Below, in pieces: positions 1,553-63,830 of a stretch of DNA of 64,000 nt (within the stretch, counting starts at the first letter, position 1; every line of letters begins with the position of its first letter). Source of the DNA: Hymenobacter psoromatis (GTDB taxonomy: Bacteria; Bacteroidota; Bacteroidia; Cytophagales; Hymenobacteraceae); the NCBI GenBank assembly GCA_001596155.1, contig CP014769.1:135991-199990 (forward strand), given 5' to 3'. Made by a program: the position numbers and the translations under genes. The notes below the pieces were generated by a model, which saw only the letters and a program-made list of their open reading frames with translations, searched no databases and was not told where the DNA came from.

Positions 1553-2215
1553 ATGGCAACGCTCTACCCTCCAAAGGCTTCTGGCAGCCCCCGCGCTATC
1601 GTCGTCATCGGGGCTTCGGCGGGGGGCGTTGCCGCGTTGCTGGCCCTGGCCAAAACCCTACCGGCTGATTTTCCAGCCCCTATTTTCATCGTGCTGCACC
1701 TGGGGGCCGATTTGCCCTGCATTCTGCCGCAGCTGCTCAGCGCCGTGGCGAAGCTGCCGGCCCGGCACCCGCAAAACGGGGAGCTTATTGCGCCAGGAAT
1801 ACTATACGTGGCCCCGCCCGCCCACCAGATGCTGCTGGAAGGCGACCGGGTGCTAGTGACGCAGGACCCGCCGGAAAACCGGTTTCGGCCCTCCATTGAT
1901 GCGCTGTTTCGCTCGGCGGCCCGCACGCATGGCCGGCGCGTGATTGGCGTGGTACTCACGGGTTACCTGAACGACGGGGCGCTGGGGCTGGGGTCGGTGC
2001 AGCGGCACGGCGGCCTGACCATCGTGCAGGAACCGCACGACGCTGAGCAGCCCGACATGCCCACCAACGCCCTGGCGCTGGTAACGCCCGACTATATCGT
2101 ACCGCTAGCCCAACTGGGCCCCCTGCTCGTGCGCCTGACCACGGAAATTACCCCGGCCAACCGGCCCCGGCCTGCGCCCGAGCTGGGCGTTGGGCGAGGG
2201 GGTAGGGCTACCTGA
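1553..2215 (+). CDS. Stand-alone CheB-type protein-glutamate methylesterase
   Basis: A 220-residue CheB catalytic domain without the usual receiver domain. The catalytic Ser lies in GASAGG (S22), the His in VLHL (H49) and the Asp in LTGYLNDG (D141), so the triad is complete. Known CheB enzymes hydrolyse methyl-glutamate (and deamidate Gln) in chemoreceptors; stand-alone copies in Bacteroidota usually occur with CheR or hybrid kinases in non-chemotaxis signalling. No cheR, receptor or response regulator is visible here, so the substrate is unknown. It starts 55 bases after the L,D-transpeptidase and could share its transcript. The ATG at 1553 gives a normal N-terminus just ahead of the first beta strand. 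Confidence 0.85.
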   Translation: MATLYPPKASGSPRAIVVIGASAGGVAALLALAKTLPADFPAPIFIVLHLGADLPCILPQLLSAVAKLPARHPQNGELIAPGILYVAPPAHQMLLEGDRVLVTQDPPENRFRPSIDALFRSAARTHGRRVIGVVLTGYLNDGALGLGSVQRHGGLTIVQEPHDAEQPDMPTNALALVTPDYIVPLAQLGPLLVRLTTEITPANRPRPAPELGVGRGGRAT

Positions 2216-2279
2216 CAAAAGTCATCCCTTACGGATGCGTTTTGTCATAAAAAGGGGGGGGTAGGCGCGCCTACTTTTG
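2213..2279 (+). promoter_or_regulatory. Tandem FNR-like site plus -7 box (site 1)
   Basis: TGACAAAAGTCA at 2213-2224 is followed by a second, half-conserved copy ending in TTTGTCA at 2247 (spacing 23, one more than the usual 22). TACTTTTG at 2272-2279 matches the Bacteroidota -7 consensus TAnnTTTG exactly and ends 32 bp after the second copy. It points to the secreted protein gene downstream. Confidence 0.7.
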
Positions 2280-2408
2280 GATGGCCCGCTTTCCACCTCT
2301 AACGATGTTTTCTACCCTTAAAATAGTCGCCGCTACGCTGGCTGCTGGGCGGCGGCGGGCCGCCGCTACCCCATTTTCGCAGGCAACACCCGCGCGAATA
2401 GCCCGGCC

Positions 2409-2945
2409 GTGGTAGCGCGGCCGCAAGTGGGGCCGCCGCGCCAGCCGGAAGCCCGTAGCGTCCCCAAAAGCCATGCTGGCACCGCCCTGAAAATCCTCTG
2501 GTTGCTCTGGGTGGCCCTGGTGTCGGGCCCCGTTGTGCACGCGCAGGCGATGGCCACGGCCGACGTACCGCCGCTGGCCTATGGGGCGATGTTTGAGCAC
2601 TATCCGCTGGCCCGGCAGATAACCTGGCGCCGGTTTCAGGACTGCTACCAGGCCAGCTACCTCCAGGGTCAGACCTACCGGCTGGTCCGGTTCAATGGCA
2701 ACGGCGATATCGAGGCCACGGGCCAGGACATGGCGCTCAGTGCGCTCTCGCTCCCCATCCAGCACACCCTGACCACCTACTACCCCACCCGCACCTTCTG
2801 CCGCGCTATTGAGGTGACCAACGCCCGGACCAGGGGCCTCACCTACGAGATGGCCACCTGCGAAACCGCCATCAGCCGCACCGTCACGCTGACGGCCGAC
2901 GGCCGGAAAATACCCCGTTCCCAGTACCTGGGGTCGCTCCCCTAG
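2409..2945 (+). CDS. Secreted PepSY-like (DUF2874-type) protein
   Basis: The mature part shows the pattern of the PepSY-like/DUF2874 periplasmic family of Bacteroidota: a P-x-A-x-x-x-x-W start (YPLARQITW), short beta segments with aromatic residues, a DANG-like turn (FNGNGDIEATG), an LP..I...L..YYP segment and a final strand ending in a DGR turn. A signal peptide is visible at about residues 28-48 (ALKILWLLWVALVSG, ending AQA), but the GTG at 2409 leaves an unusually long, Pro/Arg-rich stretch in front. A nearby ATG (2305) is in another frame and stops at 2413-2415, so either the true start is not ATG or a frameshift has separated the start from the body. Function is unknown; members are guessed to be small periplasmic binding or inhibitor proteins. 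Control site 1 lies upstream. Confidence 0.55.
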   Translation: MVARPQVGPPRQPEARSVPKSHAGTALKILWLLWVALVSGPVVHAQAMATADVPPLAYGAMFEHYPLARQITWRRFQDCYQASYLQGQTYRLVRFNGNGDIEATGQDMALSALSLPIQHTLTTYYPTRTFCRAIEVTNARTRGLTYEMATCETAISRTVTLTADGRKIPRSQYLGSLP

Positions 2946-2973
2946 CAGCCTTGCCAACTGGCCGGAGGCTCCC

Positions 2974-3038
2974 TGATAAAAATCAGGTAGGGAGGTAATA
3001 ATCGTCAGGGTATTGCCAGGCGGCGGGGCGGAATTTTG
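2974..3038 (+). promoter_or_regulatory. Tandem FNR-like site plus -7 box (site 2)
   Basis: TGATAAAAATCA at 2974-2985 and TAATAATCGTCA at 2996-3007, exactly 22 bp apart. TTG at 3013-3015 and GAATTTTG at 3031-3038 follow; the box ends 31 bp after the second copy. The same TTG-15-GAATTTTG layout occurs in front of the hydrogenase. It would drive the BON/USP/peroxiredoxin genes. Confidence 0.8.
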
Positions 3039-3095: not shown

Positions 3096-4544
3096 ATGCA
3101 AACCCTGGAAACCTTCGCGCCGCCCGCCCCGGCCGACCACCTATCAGATGCCGACATTACGGCCGCCATCGAGCTGTTTTTTACGACCAAAAAAGGCGTG
3201 CCTGCGCACCTGATTGACGTGGCTGCGCACGAGGGCATCGTGCGGCTGACGGGCATCACCGACAACCTGCTGGCCAGCGAGCGGGCCGAGGAAATCGCCC
3301 TGGCCGTGCGCGGCGTGCGGGGGGTAGTCAATGAGTTAATTATCAGCACGCCCGACCGGCCCAATGACGAGCTGTACCACGCCGTGACTCAGGCCCTGCG
3401 CGCCGACCCCGCCACCACCGACTATAACGTGGCCTGCACCGTGGCCGACGGCGTGGTAACGCCCACCGGCATAGTGCAGAGCTGGGCCGAGCAGCAACTG
3501 GTGCTGCGCGTGCTGCGGGGCGTGCGCGGGGTGCGCCGCCTGGTGGCCGATGAGCTGACCATCCGCTGGGGTGAAATCCAGAATTCGGACGAGGAAATCA
3601 GCGCCCAAATCCGCGAGCTGCTGGCCTGGGACATCCGCGTGCTCAGCGACCAGGTAGGGGTGCGCACCACCGACCGGGTGGTGCACCTGAGCGGCACGGT
3701 GGGCACCGCCGCCGAGCGGGCCCAGGTGGTGGCCGTGGCCTACCAGGCCGGCGCGCGCCGCGTCGATGCCCGCGACCTGTTCGTGGCCTACTGGGCTCAG
3801 AGCCCCGAGCTGCGGCGCGAAAAATTTGTCCAGCGCAGCGACGCTGACCTTGCCCAGGCCGTGCTCGCTACCTTCCGCTACGACCCGCGCGTGCTGGATT
3901 ACCAGCCCACGGTGGTGGTGCACGATGGCCTGGTGACGCTGACCGGCCAAGTGAGTAGCCTGCGCGCCAAGCAAAGCGCCGAGCAGGATGCCCGCCACGT
4001 GGTGGGCGTGTGGAACGTGCACAACCTGCTGAAGGTGCGCACCCGCTGGTTCACGCCCGATGCGGAGGTGCGCCAGGCCATCCTCGACGCGCTGGCGCGG
4101 GACCCCTACGTGAGCATTTTCGAGTTTCAGGTGCGGGTGACCAATGGCCGCGCCCACCTCGACGGGCTGGTTAACAGCCACTTCGAGCAGGCCCAGGCCG
4201 CCGAGGTGGCCAGCGGCGTAAATGGCGTGGCCGAAGTGGAGAACGGCGTGCGCGTGCTGCCCAGCGCCGGCCAGGCCGGCTGTTATCCCTACCCCGGTGC
4301 CCTGCGCCCGGCCGCCTACCCCAACGCTGACTTCGCCCTGGCCGAGCGCATCCGCGGGCTGTACTTCTGGTCGGCCAGCCTGCACAACCAGGACGTGGAG
4401 GTGCTGGTGGAAAACGGCCGCGCTACCCTCACGGGCACCGTTGCTACCTGGCTCGACCGCGAGCAGGCCGCCTTCGATGCTTACGAGGCCGGCGCGCAAC
4501 GGGTGGATAACGACTTGCTGCTGTCTACTGCCAACGGGTTATAG
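3096..4544 (+). CDS. Six-BON-domain protein
   Basis: The 482 residues are almost wholly six tandem BON domains at about 18-88, 90-155, 165-235, 250-320, 322-392 and 410-480. Each shows the family pattern: an acidic start (SDADI, PDAEV), a strand-turn-strand with G.V.L.G and a G-V-x-x-V-x-N end. There is no signal peptide or lipobox, so it is predicted to be cytoplasmic, unlike OsmY or the BON secretins. BON domains bind phospholipid or other ligands in known cases; the role of long cytosolic arrays is not established. It heads a tight run with a 73-aa ORF, a USP and a peroxiredoxin, behind control site 2. A paralogue with the same six-domain plan lies at 20696-22207. Confidence 0.9.
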   Translation: MQTLETFAPPAPADHLSDADITAAIELFFTTKKGVPAHLIDVAAHEGIVRLTGITDNLLASERAEEIALAVRGVRGVVNELIISTPDRPNDELYHAVTQALRADPATTDYNVACTVADGVVTPTGIVQSWAEQQLVLRVLRGVRGVRRLVADELTIRWGEIQNSDEEISAQIRELLAWDIRVLSDQVGVRTTDRVVHLSGTVGTAAERAQVVAVAYQAGARRVDARDLFVAYWAQSPELRREKFVQRSDADLAQAVLATFRYDPRVLDYQPTVVVHDGLVTLTGQVSSLRAKQSAEQDARHVVGVWNVHNLLKVRTRWFTPDAEVRQAILDALARDPYVSIFEFQVRVTNGRAHLDGLVNSHFEQAQAAEVASGVNGVAEVENGVRVLPSAGQAGCYPYPGALRPAAYPNADFALAERIRGLYFWSASLHNQDVEVLVENGRATLTGTVATWLDREQAAFDAYEAGAQRVDNDLLLSTANGL

Positions 4545-4553
4545 GTCAGTATC

Positions 4554-4811: not shown

Positions 4812-5642
4812 ATGAGTCCTTCCCTGCTCGTGCTGGCCAATTTACCGGAGGCCGCCGCCCCCACGGCGCGCTACGCCGCCGCCCTGAGTCAGCCGCTGGG
4901 CCTGCGCCTGGCGCTGCTGCATTGCTACCTCCACCCCGCCTTGCTGACGCCCGCGCTGGCGCAAGAGGAAATAGCGCAGACCGACTACAACGAGGCCGAA
5001 ACCATGACCGCGCTGCACGCCCTGGCCCGCCGCCTACCCGTACCTACCGAGGTACTAGAAGCGGGCGAGGTGCTGAAGGATGACGTAGCTGCCGCCATCA
5101 GGCGCTACCAGCCGTTGCTGCTGGCCCTGGGCCTGGGCCCCGACCAAAGCCTGCTCGATGCACTGCTGCACACCCACGTGCTGCCCGTGTTGCGGGCCAC
5201 CGGGCGGCCGGTGCTGCTGGTGCCCGCCGCCGCTACGGCCGCCGCCCCGCGCCGGGTGCTGGTGGCCGTGGATAGCGAGCCCTTCGGCCTGACGGCAGCT
5301 TCCCGCAACCTGGGCTGGTTACTAGGCTCTTGGGCAGCTACTTATACCGTGGCCCACATCGACTTATCCGGCGAGCTGCCGGGCACTGAGGGACAGCGCG
5401 CCCTGGCCGATGTGCGGGCCAGCAAGCTCCTACCCCCCGCCACGCCTGTGGAGCTATACGAGGTGGCCGACGTGGCCCCGGCCGCCGGCATCCTGCAAGC
5501 CCTGGCCGATACGCAGGCCGATATGCTGGTGCTCATTGCCCGGCCGCGCAGCTTTTTTGGGGCGCTGTTTCACCGTAGCGTCACGGCGGCCGTGCTGCGC
5601 CACACCTGGGTGCCGGTGCTGCTGCTGCCGACGGCGGGGTAG
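4812..5642 (+). CDS. Universal stress protein, two UspA domains
   Basis: Two tandem UspA-like domains (about 3-140 and 148-276). Each starts with a hydrophobic strand (LLVLANL; RVLVAVDS) and ends with the nucleotide-pocket-like strand (PVLLVPA; PVLLLPT). The second domain has the SFFGALFHRSVTAAVLRHTWVPVLLL end typical of the family, where G-x9-G-S/T contacts ATP in binders; here the G..H.SV pattern is only partly kept. USPs act in survival during starvation, hypoxia or oxidative stress. It sits between the BON protein and the peroxiredoxin, behind control site 2. Three further USP genes or fragments lie in the window. Confidence 0.9.
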   Translation: MSPSLLVLANLPEAAAPTARYAAALSQPLGLRLALLHCYLHPALLTPALAQEEIAQTDYNEAETMTALHALARRLPVPTEVLEAGEVLKDDVAAAIRRYQPLLLALGLGPDQSLLDALLHTHVLPVLRATGRPVLLVPAAATAAAPRRVLVAVDSEPFGLTAASRNLGWLLGSWAATYTVAHIDLSGELPGTEGQRALADVRASKLLPPATPVELYEVADVAPAAGILQALADTQADMLVLIARPRSFFGALFHRSVTAAVLRHTWVPVLLLPTAG

Positions 5643-5691
5643 GGGGATAGGGCCTCCGCCAGTTTCTTCTTTTCAGCTTTTTCTCCTAAAA

Positions 5692-6345
5692 ATGGATACT
5701 ACCCAACCTGCTCATTGCCCGCCCGGCATTGGCGCGCAAGCCCCCGATTTTGAGGCTATCACGACTACTGGCCCCATCCGGTTTGCCGATTTTGCGCCCG
5801 GTAAGTGGGTACTGTTCTTCTCGCACCCGGCCGATTTTACGCCCGTTTGCACCACCGAACTGACCGGCTTTGCCAAGCGCGAGGACGAGTTTACGGCCCT
5901 CAACACGGCGCTGCTGGGCCTGAGTATCGACAGCATTCACTCGCACATTGCCTGGGTCAACAACGTGCGCGAAAAGAGCGGCGTGTACTTCCGCTTCCCC
6001 ATCATTGCCGACATTGATATGCAGGTGGCGCGCCTCTACGGCATGCTCCAGCCCGCGGAGAGCGACACCGCCGCCGTGCGGGCCGTGTTCTTCATCGACC
6101 CCAGCCACAAAGTCCGCCTCGTGCTCTACTACCCCATGAGCGTGGGCCGCAACCTCGACGAGCTGCTGCGCGCCCTCCAGGCCCTGCAATTCGTGGACGA
6201 GCACCACGTGTCGCTGCCCCTGAACTGGCAGCCGGGCCAGAAAGTGCTGCTGCCGGCCCCCGTCACCCTCGCCCAGCTCGACGCGCGCCTGGCCGACGAC
6301 TCGGTGGAGCAAGTGGATTTTTACCTGGCCGAAACCTACGTGTAA
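5692..6345 (+). CDS. 1-Cys peroxiredoxin (Prx6 type)
   Basis: A 217-residue thiol peroxidase. The peroxidatic Cys is C53 in the PVCTTE motif, preceded by FSHPADFTP, and the long C-terminal domain (about 155-217, with the LPLNWQPG segment) is the Prx6-type dimerisation arm. The only other cysteine is C9 and there is no C-terminal resolving Cys, in line with a 1-Cys mechanism. It would reduce H2O2 and alkyl hydroperoxides in the cytoplasm. A longer frame reads through from upstream, but the ATG at 5692 sits exactly at the normal family N-terminus, 49 bases after the USP stop. Its presence in the BON/USP unit suggests oxidative protection on re-oxygenation. Confidence 0.93.
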   Translation: MDTTQPAHCPPGIGAQAPDFEAITTTGPIRFADFAPGKWVLFFSHPADFTPVCTTELTGFAKREDEFTALNTALLGLSIDSIHSHIAWVNNVREKSGVYFRFPIIADIDMQVARLYGMLQPAESDTAAVRAVFFIDPSHKVRLVLYYPMSVGRNLDELLRALQALQFVDEHHVSLPLNWQPGQKVLLPAPVTLAQLDARLADDSVEQVDFYLAETYV

Positions 6346-6843: not shown

Positions 6844-6908
6844 TAACGAAAATCAGGCAGAAGGCTGACGTTTTACGGCGCATTGCGGACGGGCCGCCCG
6901 GTCATTTG
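6844..6908 (+). promoter_or_regulatory. Degenerate tandem FNR-like site plus -7 box (site 3)
   Basis: TAACGAAAATCA at 6844-6855 and TGACGTTTTACG at 6866-6877 keep the 22-bp spacing, each with one half-site altered. GTCATTTG at 6901-6908 ends exactly 31 bp after the second copy. The geometry, rather than the sequence alone, supports it. It would drive the P3A-type ATPase. Confidence 0.55.
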
Positions 6909-7077: not shown

Positions 7078-9528
7078 ATGAGCCCCAAAACCCCGGCCGC
7101 TCCGGCCATCCTTACCCCGGCCGCTCCGCCGGCCGCACCACCACCCGCATCGCCGCCGGCTAAGGGCCTGGTTCAGGCTGACTTAGCGAGCTTGCGGGCG
7201 CAGTTCGGTTACAATGAGGTGCTGGGGAAAAAGCCCAATCCGGTGCTGTTGTTTGCCAAAAAGTTCTGGGGCCTCACGGCGTGGCTGCTGGAGGCGATAA
7301 TCGGGTTTTCCTGGTTTTTGCACAAGCTTGCCGACGTTTACATCGTGCTGGGGCTGCTGATTTTCAACGCGGTCATTGGCTTTATTCAGGAGCACAACGC
7401 CGCCAAGGCCGTGGCAGCGCTGAAAAAAAAGCTGCAAATCAACGTCAAGCTCCTGCGGGATGGGCAATGGAACACCCTGGCCGCCCGCGAGTTACTACCC
7501 GGCGACGTTATCCGCGTGCGCATCGGCGACTTCGTGCCGGCCGACGTGCAACTCACGCAGGGCGCGGTTCGTCTCGACCAGGCGGCGCTGACCGGCGAAT
7601 CGGGCGATGTCGCCAAAAAGGTGGGCGACACCCTGTACTCCGGCTCCGTCATCACCAAAGGCGAGGCGACGGGCACCGTCACCCTGACTGGTACAAGCAC
7701 TTACTACGGCAAGACCATCGCGCTGGTCAACACCGCCCAGCCAAAGTCGCACATCGAAGCGGTCGTTGGCGGCGTAACCCGGTGGCTGCTGGCCATTGTG
7801 GGCACGTTGCTGGCCGTGGCGCTCGTGGCTATAATTACCAAGGGCCTCCACGTGCTCCAACTAATGCCCCTGCTGCTGGTGCTGCTGCTCGGGGCCGTGC
7901 CGGTGGCCTTGGGGGCCCTGTTCACGGTGAGTATGGCGCTGGCTTCCCGGCAGTTGGTGGCCAAGGGAGTGCTGGTTACCCGGCTCAGCGCGCCCGACGA
8001 CGCGGCCAGCATGGACGTGCTGTGCGTGGACAAAACGGGCACCCTGACCCTGAACAAGCTCACCGTGGGTACCCTGCACCCGGCCGACGGTTTCAGCGCC
8101 GACGACGTGCTGCGCACGGGGGCCCTGGCCTCGCAGGAAGCCAACCACGATGCCATCGACCTGGCTTTTATCGATGCGGCCCGCCAGAAAAACCTGCTGG
8201 ATGCCACGTTCGTGCAAAAGACGTTCGTGCCCTTCGACCCCCAGACCCGCCGCACCGAAGCCCAGATTCAGCACGGCCCGGCCACGTTTTTGGTGCTGAA
8301 AGGCGCGTTCGATAGCCTGGCGGGGGCGTGCGGGCTCGACGCGGCGGCCACGGCCGCGTGGGCCGCCAAGGTCGCCGCCGCGGCCCGGCAAGGCTACCGC
8401 ACGCTGGCCGTGGCCACGGCCACGGGGGTCGGCCAGCCCCGCCTGGTGGGCCTGGCTACCCTGCACGACGCGCCCCGGCCCGACTCGCGGCAGCTCGTGC
8501 AAGAGTTGAAAAGCCTGGGCGTGGCCGTCAAGATGCTCACCGGCGATGCCCGGCCCATTGCCGTTCAGATTGCCACGGCCGTGGGCGTGGGTGGGGCTAT
8601 AATCCAGGCTGCTGACCTCAAAAAAGCGGACCCGGTCCAGGTCGCGGCCCTGTTGGAAAAAAACGACGGGGTAGCCGGCGTTTACCCGGAGGACAAGTAC
8701 GCCATCGTCAAGGCTTTGCAGGCGGGCGGCCACATCGTGGGCATGACCGGCGACGGCGTGAACGACGCCCCCGCCCTAAAGCAGGCCGAAGTGGGCATTG
8801 CCGTGCGCAGCGCCACCGACGTGGCCAAGGGGGCGGCCAGCATCGTGCTCACCCAGGACGGGCTGGTCAACATCCTGGAGCCCATCAAAGTGGGCCGGAT
8901 GATGTTCGAGCGCATCAACGTATGGATACTCAACAAGCTGGCCCTCACCATTCTCAAAACCTGCTTCGTGGTCGGGGCCTTCCTGGTCCTGGGCAAATTC
9001 GTGATTTCCGCCGCGGCCATCCTGCTGATGATTTTTATGACCGACTTCGTGAAAATCTCCCTGGCTACCGACCACGTGCAGTGGGCCCCGCAGCCGGCCC
9101 GCTGGAACATCCGCGGCCTGGCCAAAACGGGCATCGTCATGGGCCTGGCGATGACGCTGGAAGCCTTCGGGCTGCTTTACCTGGGCCTGCGCTACTTCCG
9201 GCTGGGCACCAACAATGCGGCGCTCAGTACTTTTTGCTTCGAGCTGCTGCTCTTTTTCGCGCTGTTTTCCATCTTCGTGGTCCGCGAGAAAAGCCATTTC
9301 TGGCACTCGGCCCCGAGCCGCACCCTGCTGCTGCTCCTGCTGGCCGATATGGGGCTGGGAATTGCTTTGGCTACTTTCGGGCTGCTGGGATTCCAGGCTA
9401 TCCCCTTCACGCAGTCCGCGGCGGTAATTGCCTACGCCGCCGTCTGTTCCTTTATAATCAATGACTTACTGAAAGTGGCAGTTTCCCGGCTCGCCCCGGC
9501 GGCCAGCCAGCCCCCGCCAGCAGGGTAG
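7078..9528 (+). CDS. P-type proton ATPase, P3A (plasma-membrane H+-ATPase) type
   Basis: An 816-residue P-type ATPase: Pro/Ala-rich N-terminus (to about 30), M1-M2, actuator domain with LTGES, the phosphorylation motif DKTGTLT (D318), the hinge [19 protein letters not shown] and six C-terminal membrane helices. The short N-terminus without metal-binding domains, the GYNE start and the length match P3A H+ pumps of plants, fungi, archaea and some bacteria rather than Ca2+ or heavy-metal pumps. It would use ATP to export protons. Substrate is inferred from family resemblance. It stands alone between two terminators with control site 3 upstream, so it seems to be a separate transcription unit of the regulon. 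Confidence 0.85.
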   Translation: MSPKTPAAPAILTPAAPPAAPPPASPPAKGLVQADLASLRAQFGYNEVLGKKPNPVLLFAKKFWGLTAWLLEAIIGFSWFLHKLADVYIVLGLLIFNAVIGFIQEHNAAKAVAALKKKLQINVKLLRDGQWNTLAARELLPGDVIRVRIGDFVPADVQLTQGAVRLDQAALTGESGDVAKKVGDTLYSGSVITKGEATGTVTLTGTSTYYGKTIALVNTAQPKSHIEAVVGGVTRWLLAIVGTLLAVALVAIITKGLHVLQLMPLLLVLLLGAVPVALGALFTVSMALASRQLVAKGVLVTRLSAPDDAASMDVLCVDKTGTLTLNKLTVGTLHPADGFSADDVLRTGALASQEANHDAIDLAFIDAARQKNLLDATFVQKTFVPFDPQTRRTEAQIQHGPATFLVLKGAFDSLAGACGLDAAATAAWAAKVAAAARQGYRTLAVATATGVGQPRLVGLATLHDAPRPDSRQLVQELKSLGVAVKMLTGDARPIAVQIATAVGVGGAIIQAADLKKADPVQVAALLEKNDGVAGVYPEDKYAIVKALQAGGHIVGMTGDGVNDAPALKQAEVGIAVRSATDVAKGAASIVLTQDGLVNILEPIKVGRMMFERINVWILNKLALTILKTCFVVGAFLVLGKFVISAAAILLMIFMTDFVKISLATDHVQWAPQPARWNIRGLAKTGIVMGLAMTLEAFGLLYLGLRYFRLGTNNAALSTFCFELLLFFALFSIFVVREKSHFWHSAPSRTLLLLLLADMGLGIALATFGLLGFQAIPFTQSAAVIAYAAVCSFIINDLLKVAVSRLAPAASQPPPAG

Positions 9529-9695: not shown

Positions 9696-9760
9696 TGACA
9701 AAAATCAGCTAATAAGCTAATTATTGTCAGAGTCTTGCTAAGCCCTACCCCAGACCTTTA
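9696..9760 (+). promoter_or_regulatory. Tandem FNR-like site plus -7 box (site 4)
   Basis: TGACAAAAATCA at 9696-9707 and TAATTATTGTCA at 9718-9729, 22 bp apart. TTG at 9735-9737 and GACCTTTA at 9753-9760 follow, the box ending 31 bp after the second copy. It heads the dehydrogenase/acetate kinase/phosphoketolase unit. Confidence 0.8.
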
Positions 9761-51560: not shown

Positions 51561-51585
51561 AGGGTTTGGGGGTTGCATTTTAGCT

Positions 51586-53480: not shown

Positions 53481-53545
53481 CAAGATTACGCCCCGGCCAG
53501 CGCGGCCAGCCTGACGAAAATCAGCCCAAGGGGTGATAATTGACA
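53481..53545 (-). promoter_or_regulatory. Tandem FNR-like site plus -7 box (site 11, minus strand)
   Basis: On the minus strand TGTCAATTATCA (53545-53534) and TGATTTTCGTCA (53523-53512), 22 bp apart. TAATCTTG (53488-53481) ends exactly 31 bp after the second copy. The same -7 box is used at site 13. It drives pgm and glgP. Confidence 0.78.
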
Positions 53546-54658: not shown

Positions 54659-54690
54659 AAGTAGTTCAGCGCAATTGATTTTGCAAAAAG

Positions 54691-54720
54691 GCCGTCATGC
54701 TCATCTGGTTTTGCCAGACT
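54691..54720. repeat. Single arm of a family-A repeat
   Basis: CCGTCATGCTCATCTGG at about 54692 matches the arm of the large family-A element, without its partner arm. It lies between atpA and atpG. Confidence 0.55.
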
Positions 54721-54725
54721 ACTTA

Positions 54726-56414
54726 TCAGGCTGGGGACTTGGAGTCCGCCGGAGGCGGGGGCTTAGGGGCCGCCGGGGGCGGGGGCGGGGGAGCCGCCGC
54801 AGGTGGGGGAGGCGGGGGCTTTGAAGCCGCCGGGGCTGGTGACTTAGAGTCCGCCGGGGCCGCCGGCGGGGGCGTGGGGGCCGCCGGGGGCGGGGGCTGA
54901 AAAGGGGCCAGCACCGTTTTGGCGTTGGCCAGCAGGGCATCGTGGTCGGCTGGGAGCAGGGGCTTTTCGGAGGCTAGGCGCTGGAGTAGGTCGGGGGGTA
55001 GGGCCTGGCTGCTTTGGATGAGCTGGGCCTGGGCATCGGGCATTTTCTCCAGGGGCACCTGGTCGAAGTAGCCGCTGGTGAGGGCCAGCAGCACCACCAG
55101 CTGCTCGGTTACCGCCAGCGGGCGCAGCTCCGACTGCTTGAGCCACTGGCGGATGCGCTGGCCGTGGTCGATAACGGTTTGCGTGTGCGCATCGAGCCGG
55201 GTGCCGAAGCGGGCGTAGTTTTCCAACTCCTCAAACTGCGCGTAGTCCAGCTTGAGCGAGCCGGTGGCGGCGCGGTAGGCGGGCAGCTGGGCCACGCCGC
55301 CCACCCGCGACACGGATTTGCCCACATCGACGGCCGGCAGAATGCCCGCCTCAAACAGCTTGGGCGAGAGGTATATCTGGCCATCGGTGATGGAGATGAG
55401 GTTGGTCGGAATGTAGGCCGAGATGTTCTGGGCTTCGGTTTCGATGACGGGTAGGGCCGTGAGCGAGCCGCCGCCCAGCGCCGGGCTCAGGTGCGTAGAC
55501 CGTTCCAACAGGCGCGAGTGGATGTAGAAAATATCGCCCGGAAACGCCTCCCGGCCCGGTGGCCGCCGCAGCAGCAGCGACAGCTCGCGGTAGGCGCGGG
55601 CGTGGTGCGTGAGGTCATCGTACACGATGAGCACGTCGCGGCCCTGCTCCATAAAGTGCTCGGCTATGCTGGTGGCCGCGTAGGGCGCGATGTATTCCAG
55701 GCCCGGCGCGTCGTTGCCTTCCGCCACCAGCACCACGGTGTAGGCCATTGCCTGGTGCTTACGGAGGATGGCAATCAGCTTGGCCACCGCCGAGGCCCGT
55801 TGCCCAATGGCGCAGTACACGCACAACACGTTCTTACCCTGCTGATTAAGAATGGTATCGAGGGCAATGGCGGTTTTGCCGGTCTGCCGGTCGCCCAGAA
55901 TCAGCTCGCGCTGACCCCGCCCGATGGGAATGAGGGCATCGAGCACCTTGAGGCCGGTTTGCAGCGGCGTATCGACCGCCGCCCGGTCCATGATGGCCGC
56001 GGCCGGCCGCTCGATGGGCAGGCGCGTGGCAGTGCGAATAGGCGGCCGCTCATCCAGCGGCTCGCCCAGCGGGTTGATAACCCGGCCGAGCAGCGCGTCG
56101 CCCACCGGCACGTCCATGACCCGGCCCGTGCGCTCCACCTCGTCGCCCACGCTCACCCGCGAATCCTCGCCCAGCAGGATAACCCCGATTTCGTCGGCAT
56201 CCAGGTTGTAGGCAATGCCAAACAGGCCGCTGGGAAACGTCAGCAGCTCCTCAAAGCCCGCCCCCGGCAGCCCGGCCACCCGCACCACCCCCGCCGACAC
56301 GCTGATAACCGTGCCCAGCTCGCGGGGCACCAGCGCGGGCACAAACGCCTCGCTGGCCCGCACCAGTTCGGCAAAAACGTCGCTCAAAGCCTCGGGCAGC
56401 TTACTTGACGACAT
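54726..56414 (-). CDS. atpA: N-ATPase alpha subunit with Pro/Ala-rich tail
   Basis: Non-catalytic nucleotide-binding subunit of F1. Walker A is [13 protein letters not shown] near 170-182; the [16 protein letters not shown] block and the [13 protein letters not shown] block are standard. ATG 56414 is used; the upstream extension to 56513 only overlaps the atpF tail in another frame. The overlap with atpF is 14 bases. After the normal family end the protein has about 57 extra residues (506-562) of almost only Pro, Ala, Ser and Lys. N-ATPase alpha subunits do not need such a tail for assembly as far as is known; similar tails occur on beta and b here. Confidence 0.93.
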
Positions 56415-57435
56415 GAGGCTTGGCTTTAGGATGCGGGGCAGGGGTAGGCGCGGGGGCTTTGGCGTGAGTAGGCGCGGGGGCTTTGACGTGAGCAGGCGCG
56501 TGGGCTTTAGCATGAGCCTGCTTGGGAGCCGGCGCGGGGGCCGGGTCAGGAGCCGGCTTGGGGGCTGGCGCTGGGGCCGGGTCAGGAGTCGGCTTGGGGG
56601 CTGGGTCAGGGGCTGGCTTGGGAACTGGGTCAGGGGCTGGCTTGGCGGCTGGGTCGGGGGCCGGCTCGTCGTCCGGATCAGGAGCCGGCTTAGGAGCCGG
56701 CGTGGCTTTTTCCAGCGCCACCAGGTAGTCGGCTACGTCCCAGGCCAGCTTGAAGCCATTCGCGCTCAGACTGATACCACTGATGAGGGCCGGGTTGGCC
56801 GTAAACTCCAGGTCCGGGGCCGCCCCCAGCAGGTCCACCAGCGTTGTTTTAATGGTTGCCTGCTGTTTCGGGGTGAGGGCGGAGGCGCTCTGCACCTGCA
56901 TCGGCTTTTTGTTGGCTTGGAACGCGGCGACCAAGGGCTTCTTATCATCGTCGCTCAGCTTATGCAGGCGCTGCACGAACACGTCCACGGCCTGGGCCTC
57001 CAGGCTCACCGAAGCCAGGTCGGCCAGGGCTTTTTTGGCCACCGCGAAAACGGTCTGCCGGGTTTGCCGAGCCAGGTCGGCCTGCTGGGTAGCCTGGCTT
57101 TCCTGCAAGGCTTTCTGTTGCTTGGCGCGTTGGTCATCGGCCTCCTGGCGGGCGGCGGCCAGCAGCTTTTGGCGCTGGGTTTCGGCATCGTTCGTGGCGG
57201 CCGTTAGCAGGGCTTGCTTTTGCGCATCGAAGGCCGCGGTTTTCTTCGTCAGCTCGTCGTGGGCGGCTTTGGCTTCGTCTTTCTGAGTTTTGGCAGCTTT
57301 GAGCTGCGCCGAAATCTTCTTCTCGCGCTGGTCCATAGCGGCCAGAATGGGGGCGTATAAAAAGCGCCGCATCAACCACACCAGCAGGGCGAAGTTGAGG
57401 AGCTGTGCAATGACCGTGAACCAGTTAATTTTCAT
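56401..57435 (-). CDS. atpF: N-ATPase b subunit with delta-like part and long Pro/Ala tail
   Basis: Peripheral stalk subunit. 344 residues: one membrane helix (about 4-25, [20 protein letters not shown]) and a long Lys/Gln/Ala-rich coiled coil (about 33-170). The next part (about 180-243, with [20 protein letters not shown]) resembles the C-terminal end of delta/OSCP. This fits N-ATPases, which lack a separate delta gene. Residues 245-344 are a low-complexity tail of PAPDP- and APKPA-like repeats, becoming His/Lys-rich at the very end. The b subunit of a normal enzyme would end near 245. Overlaps atpA by 14 bases. Confidence 0.88.
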
Positions 57436-57445
57436 GACCGTCGCG

Positions 57446-57721
57446 TTATTTATGGGCGGCGATGACGTGGTTCCAGAACGGGTTGGCGAAAATGAGAATC
57501 ATCGACACCACAAAGCAGTAAATGGCGGTCGATTCAATCATGGCCAGGCCCACGAACAGGGTGCGCGTAATGGTCGAGGAGGCATCGGGCTGCTGGGCCA
57601 GCGCACTCATGGCCGCCGCCACGGCCTTGCCCTCGCTCAGGGCCGGCGTTATGATACCAATGGAGGTAGTGAAGCCCGCCATGATGATGGAAATCATGGC
57701 AATAGTGGTGATGCTGTCCAT
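57446..57721 (-). CDS. atpE: N-ATPase c subunit (rotor ring)
   Basis: 91 residues, two membrane helices joined by a polar loop (ALAQQPDASS). The ion-binding helix has E63 followed by S64 and T65 (MIESTAIY); helix I has E30 (LSEGKAV). Two carboxylates plus Ser/Thr next to the key Glu resemble the two-carboxylate c rings and the Na+-type sites of N-ATPases; whether the ion is Na+ or H+ cannot be fixed by eye. The gene is preceded by a long palindrome, and atpF follows after 10 bases. Confidence 0.92.
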   Translation of the reverse strand: MDSITTIAMISIIMAGFTTSIGIITPALSEGKAVAAAMSALAQQPDASSTITRTLFVGLAMIESTAIYCFVVSMILIFANPFWNHVIAAHK

Positions 57722-57764
57722 AAAATTTTGGTGTGTAAGTGCTTGGGTGAAAATGCTTTAGTAG

Positions 57765-57914
57765 TCGCCCTCCGTGGCAACCTCACCCCCTAGCCCCCTC
57801 TCCAAAAAAGAGGGGGGACTAGTTCTAGTTTTTAGCTCTAGGCTAGCTTTTTTAGAGCTAGTTCCCCCTCTTTTTTGGAGAGGGGGCTAGGGGGTGAGGT
57901 TAATGCGGAGGGCG
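57765..57914. repeat. Family-B palindrome between atpB and atpE
   Basis: Arms start CGCCCTCCGTGGCAACCTCA and end, inverted, TGAGGTTAATGCGGAGGGCG, with the CCCCTAGCCCCCTCTCCAAA core and an AT-rich CTAG centre. It is inside the ATPase operon, directly before the c-subunit gene, so any processing or attenuation would change c relative to a. Confidence 0.92.
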
Positions 57915-57937
57915 ATTAACAGGAGGGGTACTAACTG

Positions 57938-58630
57938 CTACTCAGCCGGCAACGGCTGGTCGGCGGGAGTTTTGGTGACGGCCGCCGCGATATAAACCGT
58001 GGCCAGAATGGCGAAAATATACGCCTGCACCATCCCCGTGAGCAGCCCCAATAAACTCATGAGCACCGGAAAAAACAGGGGCGCGATGCTCAGCAGAATG
58101 GCCACAATCAGGCCCCCGCTCATGATGTTGCCAAACAGCCGCACAGCCAGCGCCAGCGTGCGCGAAGCGTCGGTGATGAGGTTGAAGGGCAGCATGATAA
58201 AGGTGGGCTGCACGAAGGTTTTCAGGTAGTGGCGCAGGCCCATTTGCGAAATGCTGAACGCCGGCACGGCGATAAACACCGCCAGCGCCAGCGCTACCGT
58301 GGTCGAGAGCGAGCCGGTGGGGGCCTGGTAATCAGGTAGCACGATGCCGAAATTGGCCAGGGCGATAAACAGAAACAACGTGCCGATAAAGCCGATGTAG
58401 CGGGCCGGCTGCGGTAGGCCCACCTGCTCGATTTGGGTGTTGATGCCCGACACGATTATTTCGAGCGCGCACTGCCAGCGGGCCGGGTGGAGGCCGGTTT
58501 TCAGGTGGCGGGTGCCCCAGGCCGCGGCCCCCACCATCAGCAGCATAATGCCCCAGGTGGTCACCAGCGTGAGGTTAATGGTCACGAAACCGCGCTGCCA
58601 GAAGACAACTTCATCCGAGCTAAGATGCAT
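57938..58630 (-). CDS. atpB: N-ATPase a subunit
   Basis: Membrane stator subunit that forms the ion half-channels. 230 residues with five to six membrane helices. The essential Arg is R164 in LAVRLFGNIMSG, and the last helix (GMVQAYIFAILATVYIAAAV) is conserved. The length is short, as usual for N-ATPase a subunits. It begins 9 bases inside the 3' end of atpR. A palindrome separates it from atpE. Confidence 0.93.
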   Translation of the reverse strand: MHLSSDEVVFWQRGFVTINLTLVTTWGIMLLMVGAAAWGTRHLKTGLHPARWQCALEIIVSGINTQIEQVGLPQPARYIGFIGTLFLFIALANFGIVLPDYQAPTGSLSTTVALALAVFIAVPAFSISQMGLRHYLKTFVQPTFIMLPFNLITDASRTLALAVRLFGNIMSGGLIVAILLSIAPLFFPVLMSLLGLLTGMVQAYIFAILATVYIAAAVTKTPADQPLPAE

Positions 58631-58943
58631 GGGGTAGGGGGGTAGCGGTGGGAGGGGTAGGGGGCGTTGCCGGCCGGGTGCCGGCCGCCACCAAATAGCG
58701 CGCGGTCACGAAGCCCAGGAGGCAGGCGAGCAGCGCCCGCCAGTCGCCCCCGCGCCCCACGAAGTAGAACCCTGCCCCCACGCTCCCCGCACGCAGCCAA
58801 AAGCTGCCCAGCACCCACAGGGCCGGCGCGCGGGAGGTCAGGCTGAGCCGCACCGTTAGCCAGAGGCCGTAAAAAAACAGGGTGCCCAGGGCCAGGCCAG
58901 CGACCAGGGCCAGGGCCAGGGCCATTCTAACGGGTTCAGTCAT
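58620..58943 (-). CDS. atpR: N-ATPase AtpR-like membrane subunit
   Basis: 107 residues with three hydrophobic helices (MALALALVAGLALGTLFFYG, then WVLGSFWLRAGSVGAGFYFVG, then WRALLACLLGFVTARYLV) and a Thr/Pro-rich tail. The position between atpQ and atpB, the length and the three-helix plan fit AtpR, a protein found only in N-ATPase operons and thought to help c-ring assembly or ion handling. The call rests on position and topology. It overlaps atpQ by 8 bases and atpB by 11. Confidence 0.82.
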   Translation of the reverse strand: MTEPVRMALALALVAGLALGTLFFYGLWLTVRLSLTSRAPALWVLGSFWLRAGSVGAGFYFVGRGGDWRALLACLLGFVTARYLVAAGTRPATPPTPPTATPLPHAS

Positions 58944-59271
58944 CAGTTTTGGGCGTTGATTTTGAGGGGGGAGTTTCTTTATCTTCCTGCTTTACCCAGA
59001 ACCACGCCATGCCGCACCCCAGCACCAGGCCCGCCAGCAGCAGCGTCAGGGTCCAGGACAAGGGGGCGGGCGCGGGCTCGTGCTTATCGAGCCACACGCC
59101 CAGGGCCGCGCCGGCCAGCGTGGGCACCACCACCGTCCAGCCCACGGTACCAAACAAACTCAGGCCGTGCAAGATGACGGGGCTATCGTCGGGCGGGGCC
59201 TGGCGCTTGCGGCGGGCCTTCTCGCCCACCAGGCGGCTAAAGGCAGATTCGGGGGGGGTAGGGGTCTTCAT
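58936..59271 (-). CDS. atpQ: N-ATPase AtpQ (AtpI-like) membrane protein
   Basis: 111 residues, two membrane helices (VGWTVVVPTLAGAALGVWLD and LSWTLTLLLAGLVLGCGMAWFW) between charged ends. The layout is that of AtpI/AtpQ, Mg2+- or assembly-related proteins of F-type operons. In N-ATPase operons this gene lies between atpC and atpR, as here. It starts 2 bases after the atpC stop. Confidence 0.85.
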   Translation of the reverse strand: MKTPTPPESAFSRLVGEKARRKRQAPPDDSPVILHGLSLFGTVGWTVVVPTLAGAALGVWLDKHEPAPAPLSWTLTLLLAGLVLGCGMAWFWVKQEDKETPPSKSTPKTDD

Positions 59272-59273
59272 GG

Positions 59274-59678
59274 CTAGGTGGGGCGATATTTTTCGAGCCG
59301 GGCAATGAAGCCGCTTTCCAGCTGCGCCATCACCCGGCGGTTGGTGCGCTCGGCGGCTTCCTGCGCCTTAAACTGCTTATCGACTGCCGCCTGGAGCTGC
59401 GCCAAATCGGAGCCGCCCAGCGCCTGCCGCACCGCCACCGACACCTGCGCCCCGGCCTTGGTCAGCACGCCCTCATCCACCGCCACGTACTGCTCGGGAC
59501 TGCCGTCGGTCTGGTAAGTCAAAATGCCGGGCACCAGCGCCGCCACGCAGTCGAGGCGGTGGGGTAGCAGGCCATACGAGCCCTCGCTCGTCTCAAACAC
59601 CACGCGCCGTACCCCCGCCACGTCGAGAAAAACCTCGGACGGCAGCAGCACTTTCAGGTGCATCAGGTCATCGCTCAT
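59274..59678 (-). CDS. atpC: N-ATPase epsilon subunit
   Basis: 134 residues. The N-terminal beta sandwich has the LHLKVLLPSEVFLDVAGV-like start and the usual EGSYGLLPHRLDCVAALVPG block; the C-terminal helical hairpin covers about 90-130. It couples gamma to the c ring and can act as a brake on hydrolysis. Second gene of the operon, separated from atpD by a large family-A palindrome. Confidence 0.92.
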   Translation of the reverse strand: MSDDLMHLKVLLPSEVFLDVAGVRRVVFETSEGSYGLLPHRLDCVAALVPGILTYQTDGSPEQYVAVDEGVLTKAGAQVSVAVRQALGGSDLAQLQAAVDKQFKAQEAAERTNRRVMAQLESGFIARLEKYRPT

Positions 59679-59720
59679 CGGTGGGGGGTTGATTAAGAGT
59701 TGGTAATCACTGTTTTATAA

Positions 59721-59848
59721 AAACCGTCCGTCATGCTGAGCGCAGCGGAGCGGAGTCGAAGCATCTCTACCGCTTCATCCACGCCGTTCAACGGTGCGGT
59801 AGAGATGCTTCGACTCCGCTCCGCTGCGCTCAGCATGACGTTCTTTAT
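59721..59848. repeat. Large family-A palindrome between atpD and atpC
   Basis: Arms run from CCGTCATGCTGAGCGCAGCG to AGAGATGCTTCGACTCCGCT, with the CGTCATGCT ends and the AGCATCTCTACCGC inner part shared with the 41781 element; the segment next to the tips (AGCGCAGCGGAGCGGAG) is different. The centre is about 20 bases. Confidence 0.9.
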
Positions 59849-59859
59849 TAAGATGTTAG

Positions 59860-61531
<1,672 letters not shown>

Positions 61532-61593: not shown

Positions 61594-62391
61594 CTAGGCA
61601 GCCGCCACGGCCGCCACGGCCACGACCCGCTGCGCGGCCCGCACCAGGGCAATAAATTCGTCGGCGTGCAGGGCGGCCCCACCCACCAGGGCCCCGTCAA
61701 TATCGGGCGCGTGCAGGAAGGGGTCAGCATCGGACGGCGTAACGCTGCCGCCGTACAGGATAAGCGTGGCCGCGGCCACCGCGCCCCCGTAGTGCTGAGC
61801 AATGTGCTGGCGCAGGGCGGCGTGCATCTCCTGGGCCTGCGCCGCCGTGGCCGGTGCCCCCGAACCAATGGCCCACAGTGGCTCGTAGGCAACCACGACG
61901 TTTCCAAACGCTTCAGCCGACAAGTGAAAAAGGCTTTCGCTCAGCTGGGTTTTGACAAAGCCGAGGTAGTCGCCGTGGGCGCGCAGCGCCGCCGACTCGC
62001 CGCAGCAGCAAATAGGCAACAGCTTATTAGCCAGCGCGATACTCACTTTGTCGGCCACCAGCGCGTTGGTTTCGCCAAAGTAGTGCCGGCGTTCGCTGTG
62101 CCCCAGCACCACGTAAGTTACCCCCGCGGAGTGCAGCATGGCCGCCGAAATCTCGCCCGTGTAGGCCCCCGCGGCCTGCTGCGCGCAGTTTTGCGCGCCC
62201 AGCAACACTGCGCTGCCAGGCCGCAGCAGGGGTAGGGCCGGCACCAGGTACAGCGCTGGCGGGCACACGACCACCGTAACGCCGGGGGCCGCAGCGGCGG
62301 GCAGCCCGGCAGCAATGGCCGTGAGCAGGGCGGTAGCCTCGGGCAGCGTCTCGTTCATCTTCCAGTTGCCAGCAATCATTTTCTTGCGCAT
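61594..62391 (-). CDS. tpiA: Triosephosphate isomerase
   Basis: Interconverts dihydroxyacetone phosphate and glyceraldehyde 3-phosphate. 265 residues with all landmarks: AGNWKMN at the start (catalytic Lys), VLGHSERR (His), VAYEPLWAIG (Glu), and the phosphate-gripping ILYGGSVTPSDA near the end. A short Ala/Val-rich tail ends the protein. It lies between the kinase and the ATPase operon, 85 bases after the kinase stop, so it may be transcribed from site 13. As it supplies substrate to the aldolase/phosphoketolase route at 10-16 kb, joint control is plausible. Confidence 0.96.
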   Translation of the reverse strand: MRKKMIAGNWKMNETLPEATALLTAIAAGLPAAAAPGVTVVVCPPALYLVPALPLLRPGSAVLLGAQNCAQQAAGAYTGEISAAMLHSAGVTYVVLGHSERRHYFGETNALVADKVSIALANKLLPICCCGESAALRAHGDYLGFVKTQLSESLFHLSAEAFGNVVVAYEPLWAIGSGAPATAAQAQEMHAALRQHIAQHYGGAVAAATLILYGGSVTPSDADPFLHAPDIDGALVGGAALHADEFIALVRAAQRVVAVAAVAAA

Positions 62392-62476
62392 GATGGGTTG
62401 ATTTTAAGGATGAAAACTCAAGTCGGATGCACGGCAAAGAGCGCCGGATAGAGACGTTAAGTTCTAGCATCTCGCC

Positions 62477-63607
62477 CTACCCCAGCACCTCCACCGCGCC
62501 CGCAAAGGCCGGCGTGTCCACGGTTTCGGCCCGCGGAATCTCGATGGTGAACGTGCTGCCCTGGCCCTCCTGGCTGGCCACAAAAATGTGGCCGTGGTGC
62601 CACTCCACAATGGTTTTGCACAGGGCCAGGCCCAGCCCGGTGGTGGCTTCGCCGCGCAGGCCCGGCCGGCGGGCCTTGGTAAAGCGCTCAAACAAGTACG
62701 GCTGCATGGCCAGCGGAATGCCGATGCCATCGTCCACCACCTGAATGCGCACCACGCCGGGGCCCGGCTCGATGTGCACGGCCACGCGGCCGGCATCGGG
62801 ACTGAATTTGAAGGCGTTACCGACCAGGTTGATAAGCACCTGCGTGAATTTATTGACGTCGATGTTGGCGTATATCGGCTCGGCGGGCAGCGAGTAGGTA
62901 AAGGTGTGGCCCAGAAGCCGCTGGCCGGTTTGGAGCTGGTCGAGGGGCACGCGCAACACGGCCCCCACGTCCACGCGGTCCACTTTCAGGTCGGTGTTGG
63001 CCGAGGTCAGGAATTCCAGGTTAATCAGCTCCCGAATCATCTTTACGCTGTCGCGGCTGGTGGTTTCCAGCACGTTCAGCATCTTGGGCACCAGGCTGTT
63101 GAGCGGCGCGGTCACCTCCTCGCGCAGAAATTCGGCAATCTGCTGCACCATGATGAACGCGCCGCTCAGGTCGTGCGAGAGAATTTCGAGCGTGGCGTTT
63201 TTGCGGCTGTTGAAGAGGTCGGCATTTTCCTGGTAGCGCTTCAGCACGCTGGTATCGCGCAGGGTGCCCCCGAGCAGCACCCGGCCCTGCGCATCTTGTT
63301 GATAGGAGGGCGTGAGGCAAAACCACTGGTGCGGCTGGCCCTCGTGCAGCAGGCGCACCTCTACTTCGTTGGCGGGCGGGCCCTGCTGCCACCGCGCCCA
63401 GTAATGAGCCAGGTAGGCTCGGTCGTCGGGGTGCAGGCGCTGGAGCAAGTCGGGCAGCTCGGTATTCACCAGGCCGCGGGTGCCCCCAAAAACCCGCTCA
63501 TACGCGGCGTTGACGAAGATAAGGCGGCCCGCCACGAGGTCATACACGAACTGGACGTGGGCGCTGGCTTCCGCCTGGTCCTGAAAGAAGTCGGCGAGGT
63601 CAGACAT
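62477..63607 (-). CDS. PAS-domain sensor histidine kinase
   Basis: 376 residues, soluble. A PAS domain covers about 15-125 (FVNAAYERVFGGT, then GTLRDTSVLKRYQE). The phosphoacceptor is H145 in EILSHDL. The HATPase part shows the N box NLVGNAFKFSP, the G1 box DDGIGIP, an F box and the G2 box GLGLALCKTI. No haem- or FAD-ligand motif was recognised in the PAS domain. A start at 63727 is in frame, but ATG 63607 matches the usual N-terminus and lies about 150 bases after the predicted start of site 13. No response regulator gene is in the window, so this is an orphan kinase here. Confidence 0.9.
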   Translation of the reverse strand: MSDLADFFQDQAEASAHVQFVYDLVAGRLIFVNAAYERVFGGTRGLVNTELPDLLQRLHPDDRAYLAHYWARWQQGPPANEVEVRLLHEGQPHQWFCLTPSYQQDAQGRVLLGGTLRDTSVLKRYQENADLFNSRKNATLEILSHDLSGAFIMVQQIAEFLREEVTAPLNSLVPKMLNVLETTSRDSVKMIRELINLEFLTSANTDLKVDRVDVGAVLRVPLDQLQTGQRLLGHTFTYSLPAEPIYANIDVNKFTQVLINLVGNAFKFSPDAGRVAVHIEPGPGVVRIQVVDDGIGIPLAMQPYLFERFTKARRPGLRGEATTGLGLALCKTIVEWHHGHIFVASQEGQGSTFTIEIPRAETVDTPAFAGAVEVLG

Positions 63608-63765
63608 TGGTATTAATCTGCTAAAAGAAAAGACTGGCACGGGTGCGCGCGTGGGCGGCGCAGACACCAGCCGGGCCGGGGTAGGGCTGCCCAAAAAAGG
63701 GGGGTAGGGATACCTGAAAAATGCCACCCGCCCGGCCCAACCGGCGCGGTGCGAGTGGCATGCTA

Positions 63766-63830
63766 CAAGATTACGCCGGCCCTAAAGCGGCCCCCATGAC
63801 GAAAATCAGGCCCCAGGGTGACAAACCACA
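63766..63830 (-). promoter_or_regulatory. Tandem FNR-like site plus -7 box (site 13, minus strand)
   Basis: On the minus strand TGTGGTTTGTCA (63830-63819) and TGATTTTCGTCA (63808-63797), 22 bp apart. TAATCTTG (63773-63766) ends exactly 31 bp after the second copy, the same box as at site 11. It would drive the kinase and perhaps tpiA. Confidence 0.78.

Follow-up and report, generated by a model that had tools for sequence, protein, structure and literature searches.

Oxygen limitation in rhizobia is answered by the FixL-FixJ/FxkR-FixK and FnrN anaerobox regulon, in which two-component oxygen sensing leads to a CRP/FNR-type activator of the cbb3 oxidase genes; its sites have a TGAT-N4-ATCA core, and it is located partly on a plasmid (PMC7888657). 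In the part of that source considered here, the kinase, the response regulator and the CRP-type protein are separate, and the promoters of fixNOQP and fixGHIS are shown with one anaerobox each. In a stretch of 64,000 nucleotides of the genome of Hymenobacter psoromatis (contig CP014769.1 of assembly GCA_001596155.1, positions 135,991 to 199,990; the whole stretch is referred to below as the window, and the contig as C1), 13 copies of a paired CRP/FNR-type element were found. With a probability of about 0.77, this element is the operator of a two-component low-oxygen regulon under a protein combining a receiver domain with a CRP-type activator (REC-CRP), which has been expanded here into an island. 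The predicted system would work like the FixL-FixK circuit; apparently new, and different from rhizobia, are the fusion of receiver and activator in one regulator, the operator consisting of a 22-bp pair, and the promoter of the Bacteroidota type.

The familiar class II plus class I tandem promoters of FNR and CRP have boxes near -41 and -62, to which the positions predicted here are close, and are similar in their TGA core and in E and R in the recognition helix, but REC-CRP has no cysteine cluster, the outer T of the site is not conserved, the spacing of the pair is nearly invariant, and the pair is sometimes common to divergent promoters. In gene content, the island is similar to the lxa locus of Burkholderia cenocepacia, a set of metabolic, stress and transport genes, including six genes of universal stress proteins (USPs), induced at low oxygen; judging from the part of the source considered, lxa belongs to another phylum and promoter type, whereas Hymenobacter adds a second copy on a plasmid-like replicon, a hydrogenase and an N-type ATPase (PMC9104464). 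The NmpRSTU system of Myxococcus xanthus also has a two-component regulator and paired sites, with a USP, a P-type ATPase and a high-affinity oxidase among its targets, but in the available part of its description NmpR is NtrC-like and sigma-54-dependent, and the sites, GCGCA-N5-TGCGC, are mostly 14-15 bp apart (PMC11841059). Among Bacteroidota, genes of the cbb3 oxidase and haem genes are induced at low oxygen in Flavobacterium psychrophilum, and a search of the main text of that study gave no occurrence of Crp, Fnr or response regulator (PMC9723704). No description of a REC-CRP regulator or of the element was found in full-text searches of an open-access library, although the architecture may be catalogued in surveys of response-regulator output domains.

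All 13 copies reported in an initial annotation of the window, made from the sequence alone, are present. Each consists of two 12-mers, TGAY-N4-RTCA, with a step of 22 bp, or 23 bp at the site starting at 2213, as reported; the 21-bp step given for another site was not retained, since that site, at 33103, fits a step of 22 bp. Starts previously given for minus-strand sites are at, or close to, the right-hand end of the element, for example 17230-17263 for 17263(-). The whole element is an imperfect palindrome, approximately TGAC-N4-RTCAGG-N6-CCTGAY-N4-GTCA. It is accompanied at a fixed distance by a box of the type TAnnTTTG, which was absent from the earlier account; according to the part of the literature considered, the housekeeping sigma factor of Bacteroidota has TAnnTTTG as its -7 box (PMC7366714, PMC2483708). 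The sites of the window and the genes and open reading frames (ORFs) next to them are as follows.

2213-2247, plus strand: paired element with a 23-bp step, -7 box at 2272-2279; before an ORF without a Pfam match (2409-2945).
2974-3007, plus strand: paired element, -7 box at 3031-3038; before a BON-domain gene (3096-4544), followed by a USP ORF (4812-5642) and a peroxiredoxin ORF (5410-6345).
6844-6877, plus strand: weak paired element (four mismatches); before a P-type proton ATPase gene (7078-9528).
9696-9729, plus strand: paired element, -7 box at 9753-9760; before genes of SDR (9827), HAD (10927), acetate kinase (11508), phosphoketolase (12805) and class I aldolase (15276).
17230-17263, both strands: perfect paired element, -7 boxes at 17287-17294 (plus) and 17198-17205 (minus); common to two divergent promoters, of a P-type cation ATPase gene (17435-20134, plus) and a CsbD-like ORF (16800-17264, minus), the true start of which is probably further in, because the listed start overlaps the element.
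20307-20340, plus strand: paired element, -7 box at 20364-20371; before a BON-domain gene (20576-22207).
24736-24769, plus strand: paired element, -7 box at 24793-24800; before two USP genes (24995-25828 and 25882-26802).
27937-27970, both strands: paired element (three mismatches), -7 box at 27994-28001 (plus) and a TTG-type match on the minus side; flanked by an aldehyde dehydrogenase gene (28415-29797, plus) and a PAP2 ORF (26900-27958, minus).
33103-33136, minus strand: paired element (three mismatches); faces an S41 peptidase ORF (31478-32530).
33214-33247, plus strand: paired element, -7 box at 33271-33278; before genes of the small (33415) and large (34423) subunits of NiFe hydrogenase, followed by those of a CobW/HypB-type GTPase (38770), HypF (39492) and HypD (42224).
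53512-53545, minus strand: paired element, -7 box at 53481-53488; before genes of phosphoglucomutase (51757-53457) and a phosphorylase-family protein (49017-51605).
61498-61531, minus strand: paired element, -7 box at 61467-61474; before alternate F1F0 (N-type) ATPase genes (53750-61449), with the alternate F1F0 beta subunit above the curated NCBIfam cut-off.
63797-63830, minus strand: paired element, -7 box at 63766-63773; before genes of a PAS_3/HATPase histidine kinase (62477-63727), possibly a second kinase of the system, and of triosephosphate isomerase (61594-62391).
63990-64000, no strand: right end of replicon C1, the last bases of the window.

Scored against TGAYnnnnRTCA-N10(or 11)-TGAYnnnnRTCA, ten sites, including the one with the 23-bp step, have 0-2 mismatches, two (27937 and 33103) have 3, and one (6844) has 4. 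With a spacer of 10 and at most 2 mismatches, the window contains nine pairs versus a mean of 0.00 and a maximum of 0 in 100 dinucleotide shuffles; at most 3 mismatches give 12 pairs, one of which overlaps site 2974 and does not count as a further site, versus a mean of 0.44 and a maximum of 2. The proposed similarity of the half-site to those of CRP and FNR is retained for a CRP/FNR-type element in general, but not for FNR proper: the outer T of its consensus (TTGAT) is not conserved, position -1 being C or A, and neither own nor Hymenobacter promoter arms, with T in this position in 7% of 29 and 16% of 89, respectively, follow TTGAT-N4-ATCAA. No Rfam family reached its gathering score in the window.

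The -7 box was found beside 11 of the 13 sites, on one or both sides of the element. The distance from the element end to the A of the box is 23-25 nt under the rule applied, 24 being by far the commonest. A box on at least one side accompanies all nine window pairs that have spacer 10 and no more than 2 mismatches, as well as 24 of the 25 own pairs (replicon C1 and the tail of the chromosome), seven of which have it on both sides. In relatives, it accompanies 73 of the 81 pairs in 50 loci of the Hymenobacter set and 55 of the 76 in 29 loci of the Spirosomataceae set (of the 80 relative loci, one is in neither set, and one Spirosomataceae-set record is named Flavobacterium). The A of TAnnTTTG, which was outside the arm-selection criteria, is present in 97% of 29 own, 97% of 89 Hymenobacter and 88% of 109 further arms. 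The -33 TTTG is not conserved in the arms of relatives, and TTG is found there in several own sites; apparently, the paired boxes stand in place of the -33 box. With the -7 box taken as centred at -7, the predicted centres of the two boxes of the element are about -40.5 and -62.5; for CRP/FNR, the class II plus class I positions are near -41.5 and -61.5.

The window is the end (C1:135991-199990) of a replicon of 199,990 bp in a genome of 5.45 Mb in three contigs. C1 is probably circular, because the bases at its two ends map next to each other in a chromosomal island, C3 ~5.10-5.155 Mb. This island repeats many operons of the window in rearranged order with 80-99% DNA identity, and sites 2213 (sister copy at C3:5103580) and 27937 are also present in it; no long match in it was found for the hydrogenase region or for the USP genes at 25-27 kb. 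The genome-wide two-box scan proposed in the initial annotation, here for a pair with up to 3 mismatches plus a -7 box, gave 28 matches, whereas the reversed pattern gave 0. Of the 28, 14 are on C1, 10 of them within the window; 12 are in C3:5.007-5.154 Mb, 11 of them within the island; the other 2 are elsewhere. Matches are thus concentrated here, as anticipated: 26 of the 28 are on C1 or within the final 240 kb of the chromosome contig, 8.3% of the genome (binomial p = 3e-26, a value that is overstated because the islands are duplicates). The predicted regulon of H. psoromatis is made up of one chromosomal and one plasmid-like island. The two matches outside precede a CsgE curli gene and a PAS-LuxR gene. 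Just before curli assembly genes (CsgE and CsgG by Pfam), at C3:2800133-2800166 (L243 5134-5167), there is a weaker paired element flanked by two -7 boxes, one on each side.

Fifteen matches to the cNMP-binding domain were found in the genome. The best two are REC-CRP proteins of 350 aa, 93% identical, one encoded on C1 and one in the chromosomal island; receiver PF00072, cNMP_binding PF00027 and HTH_Crp PF13545 are all above cut-off, and each gene follows that of a PAS-type histidine kinase. The features on C1 are as follows.

C1:1358-1391: paired element before the kinase-regulator operon, which starts at base 1420.
C1:1420-3084: PAS-PAS-histidine kinase gene.
C1:3062-4114: REC-CRP gene, overlapping the kinase ORF.

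The initial annotation placed the regulator outside the window, and this candidate is located ~1.4 kb past its right end, if C1 is circular. Receiver residues D52 and K104 are conserved in the nine receiver-bearing sequences among ten aligned, and a kinase homolog was found at 79 of the 80 REC-CRP loci of relatives. The N-terminal cysteine cluster of FNR is absent from REC-CRP and present in a separate FNR-like protein. In the positions of E72 and R82, the cAMP-contacting residues of E. coli CRP, REC-CRP appears by eye to have Tyr and Asp, E. coli CRP itself being outside the alignment. The best candidate regulator is likely the REC-CRP response regulator and not an iron-sulfur (Fe-S) FNR.

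The distribution of the element follows that of REC-CRP. Among 120 Hymenobacter genomes, 90 encode REC-CRP at E<=1e-50 (some as fragments only) and 30 do not; pairs with at most 1 mismatch number 5.56 per genome with REC-CRP versus 0.93 without it (p=1.8e-13; reversed control 0.25). Pairs linked to a promoter box gave 620 matches on both strands versus 1 for the reversed control, i.e., 6.62 versus 0.80 per genome with and without REC-CRP. Relatedness was taken into account with rpoB trees. The first set of 30 genomes consisted of half of the 30 non-carriers and of 15 carriers, which were chosen after the counts had been seen and included none of the seven REC-CRP genomes with one pair or none; it gave 7 contrasts, 6.7 in the same and 0 in the opposite direction (p ~0.016). 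Because of this selection, a second set was added, with the 15 other non-carriers and 15 carriers drawn at random from the remaining 74; after removal of three genomes without an rpoB match and of G061, with rpoB in two pieces, 26 (13 carriers and 13 non-carriers) were retained. Together, the 56 genomes contain 15 independent presence/absence contrasts, on average 13.2 in the same and 0.1 in the opposite direction, with a median p of 2e-4 at a threshold of 2 promoter-linked matches and 4e-3 at a threshold of 5. Shared descent does not explain the co-occurrence.

In the loci of relatives (the best 80 of 368 around REC-CRP), 54 of 79 have a pair with at most 2 mismatches in the 2.6 kb preceding the REC-CRP start, versus 0 of 79 for the reversed pattern; 49 of the 54 are 1.3-2.0 kb from this start, at the start of the kinase gene. 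Upstream of the kinase-regulator operon in some Hymenobacter species, the 23-bp-step pair is frequent, with the -7 box equally far from the near box. Genes ccoNO of the cbb3 oxidase, identified, like the other cco genes, by Pfam and NCBIfam, have an upstream pair (at most 3 mismatches) with a -7 box in 26 of 28 cases, and ccoI in 17 of 19; of the four misses, three are distant homologs (27-46% identity), while the fourth (L149) is close. The baseline for all long ORFs of these loci is 106 of 663 with element and box, and 0 of 663 for the reversed pattern. Of 20 loci, taken from 20 genomes belonging to other orders of the class, 16 have pairs (36 versus 0 reversed), with a -7 box at the same offset in 18 + 4 of 72 arms; pairs precede all four testable ccoNO (four more ran off the stretch covered) and two of three ccoI, in a test that is not fully held out because the central 4 kb of the 20 loci had been examined earlier. 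On plasmid pHsw1 of H. swuensis, REC-CRP is encoded beside truncated haemoglobins, a ccoI-type ATPase, ccoS, ccoN, ccoG, fixH, USPs and hem genes, and pairs with a 23-bp step precede the ATPase, ccoN and hemA. A plasmid of H. canadensis contains one promoter-linked pair in 41 kb, versus 1 and 2 reversed-pattern pairs for two spacers with the -7 box not required. In H. psoromatis, outside the window, cydA and cydB follow a BON gene with the element in front. The sites before cbb3 oxidase genes and ccoI in relatives point to low oxygen, and the earlier suggestion of a single regulon forming a low-oxygen or stress island is supported at the comparative level by the clustering, the co-occurrence with REC-CRP and the cbb3 targets.

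Arrays of more than two boxes were also observed in relatives. Triples with at most 4 mismatches are present in 11 of the 29 loci of the Spirosomataceae set and in 6 of the 50 of the Hymenobacter set, and the reversed pattern gave 0; arrays of three 12-mers with 22-bp steps are located at L114 12268, L120 12271, L121 17736, L140 19302 and L148 16518, and a USP-like ORF follows in L120, L121, L140 and L148 (Pfam-tested in L148). Relatives also show an excess of box spacers 6 (31) and 15 (33), the latter of which fits four-box sites. Four boxes with steps of 22, 27 and 22 are found at L150 1188-1270, an arrangement suggestive of a separate pair for each of two divergent promoters.

The sites, their geometry and promoter box, the clustering, the site before the regulator operon, the co-occurrence and the conserved targets are consistent with the following mechanism. 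The kinase would sense low oxygen or a linked redox state and phosphorylate REC-CRP. Each 12-mer would be bound by one CRP-like dimer, the two dimers being two helical turns apart at ~-40.5 and ~-62.5. Since the promoter is mostly without a -33 box, RNA polymerase is proposed to need the bound activator, and since the element is palindromic, one pair is proposed to serve two divergent promoters. Phosphorylated REC-CRP would turn on its own operon and a survival programme comprising a high-affinity oxidase, which is cbb3 in relatives and probably cytochrome bd in H. psoromatis, together with hydrogenase, phosphoketolase/acetate kinase, N-type ATPase, ion pumps, USPs and BON proteins. This gene list fits energy saving at low oxygen.

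Several findings weigh against this interpretation. The initial annotation placed the element before almost every operon, and nearly all copies are indeed at promoters, but 2 of the 13 fail the strict -7 rule: at 6844, TTTG is correctly placed but the A of TAnnTTTG is missing, and at 33103 there is no -7 box at the expected distance. The side facing the kinase operon has the standard -7 offset in only 12 (loose rule) or 10 of 79 loci of relatives. Homologs of the hydrogenase, N-ATPase and phosphoglucomutase are near REC-CRP in 0-1 of the 80 loci, and no close cbb3 homolog was found in the H. psoromatis genome. At most one pair is present in 7 of the 90 REC-CRP genomes, and two or three in 6 of the 30 genomes without REC-CRP. 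The second, less selected rpoB set is weaker (6 contrasts, 5.0 in the same and 0.1 in the opposite direction, p ~0.06). Over the phylum, REC-CRP was found at E<=1e-60 in only 56 of 395 sampled genomes and 38 of 170 genera, all in one class. Finally, the architecture is not exclusive to REC-CRP, since a pair is found 3' of the gene of the FNR-like protein, at a distance of less than 1 kb, in 15 of the 20 REC-CRP-less Hymenobacter genomes having this gene.

Because of this last finding, shared control is the most serious rival: REC-CRP and the FNR-like protein would use the same sites, as with FixK/FnrN anaeroboxes, REC-CRP at mild and FNR at severe oxygen limitation. Both proteins are tied to the same paired architecture and there is a precedent in rhizobia (PMC7888657, in the part considered), but 33 of the 90 REC-CRP genomes lack the FNR-like gene and keep as many pairs (5.5 on average), and the FNR-linked pairs look AT-rich in the centre by eye; we consider shared control rather unlikely. 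Such FNR-linked pairs are present at L198, L201 and other loci, and in the two loci looked at, the next gene presumably encodes a small roadblock-like protein. That the standalone FNR-like protein is itself the main regulator, with oxygen sensed via an Fe-S cluster, is improbable. This protein of 235 aa with N-terminal cysteines (C3:2807515-2808222) keeps the E and R of the recognition helix found in REC-CRP, has Fnr, FixK and FnrL as its best NCBIfam models, all below cut-off, and has a paired element nearby at C3:2807463. Its gene, on the other hand, is in neither island, and its presence in 77 of the 120 genomes has no effect on the number of pairs (4.42 versus 4.37, p=0.85) or of promoter-linked matches (5.05 versus 5.37, p=0.69); an Fe-S FNR as sole regulator is disfavoured by co-occurrence.

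The signal may be other than oxygen, for example desiccation, starvation or reactive species, in which case the respiration genes would be just one output among others. The broad content of the island (BON, CsbD, USP and ion pumps) and the kinase of the REC-CRP operon, with generic PAS domains only, are compatible with such a signal, but the sites of relatives most consistently precede cbb3 oxidase genes and ccoI, and the operon of pHsw1 is beside genes of truncated haemoglobin, cco, fixH and hem; this explanation is considered unlikely. In favour of chance repeats or a mobile repeat family without a regulatory role is that many C1 sites are duplicated in the chromosomal island and hence not independent; this possibility, of negligible weight, is ruled out by the shuffles (0 in 100), the reversed-pattern controls and the fixed promoter spacing, and the same architecture is found in other families and orders.

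The proposed low-oxygen regulon under REC-CRP provides a candidate regulator, operator and promoter architecture for the response of aerobic Bacteroidota to low oxygen, for which no regulator was found described in the open-access library searched, and offers a model for the control of two opposite promoters from a single palindromic operator. Since the composite element is specific (620 versus 1 control match in 120 genomes), the regulon should be predictable from sequence. A dormancy-type gene set is present on both the chromosome and the plasmid-like replicon. A broader generalization, tentative and with slightly less than even odds, is that many Bacteroidota have their own master switch for oxygen limitation: the receiver-CRP fusion would act as a phosphorylation-driven dimer pair on a tandem operator replacing the -33 box, could fire two divergent promoters at once, would use three-box arrays in Spirosomataceae, and in Hymenobacter would have moved to plasmids as a portable survival island based on hydrogen and acetate.

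Among the remaining features of the window, a broken second P-type ATPase suspected at 22.2-24.7 kb was rejected, as the region has no tblastn match to the neighbouring one. None of the 13 elements directly precedes the ORF at 47442-48776 within the island, which encodes an AAA_21 (AbiEii-like ATPase) domain.

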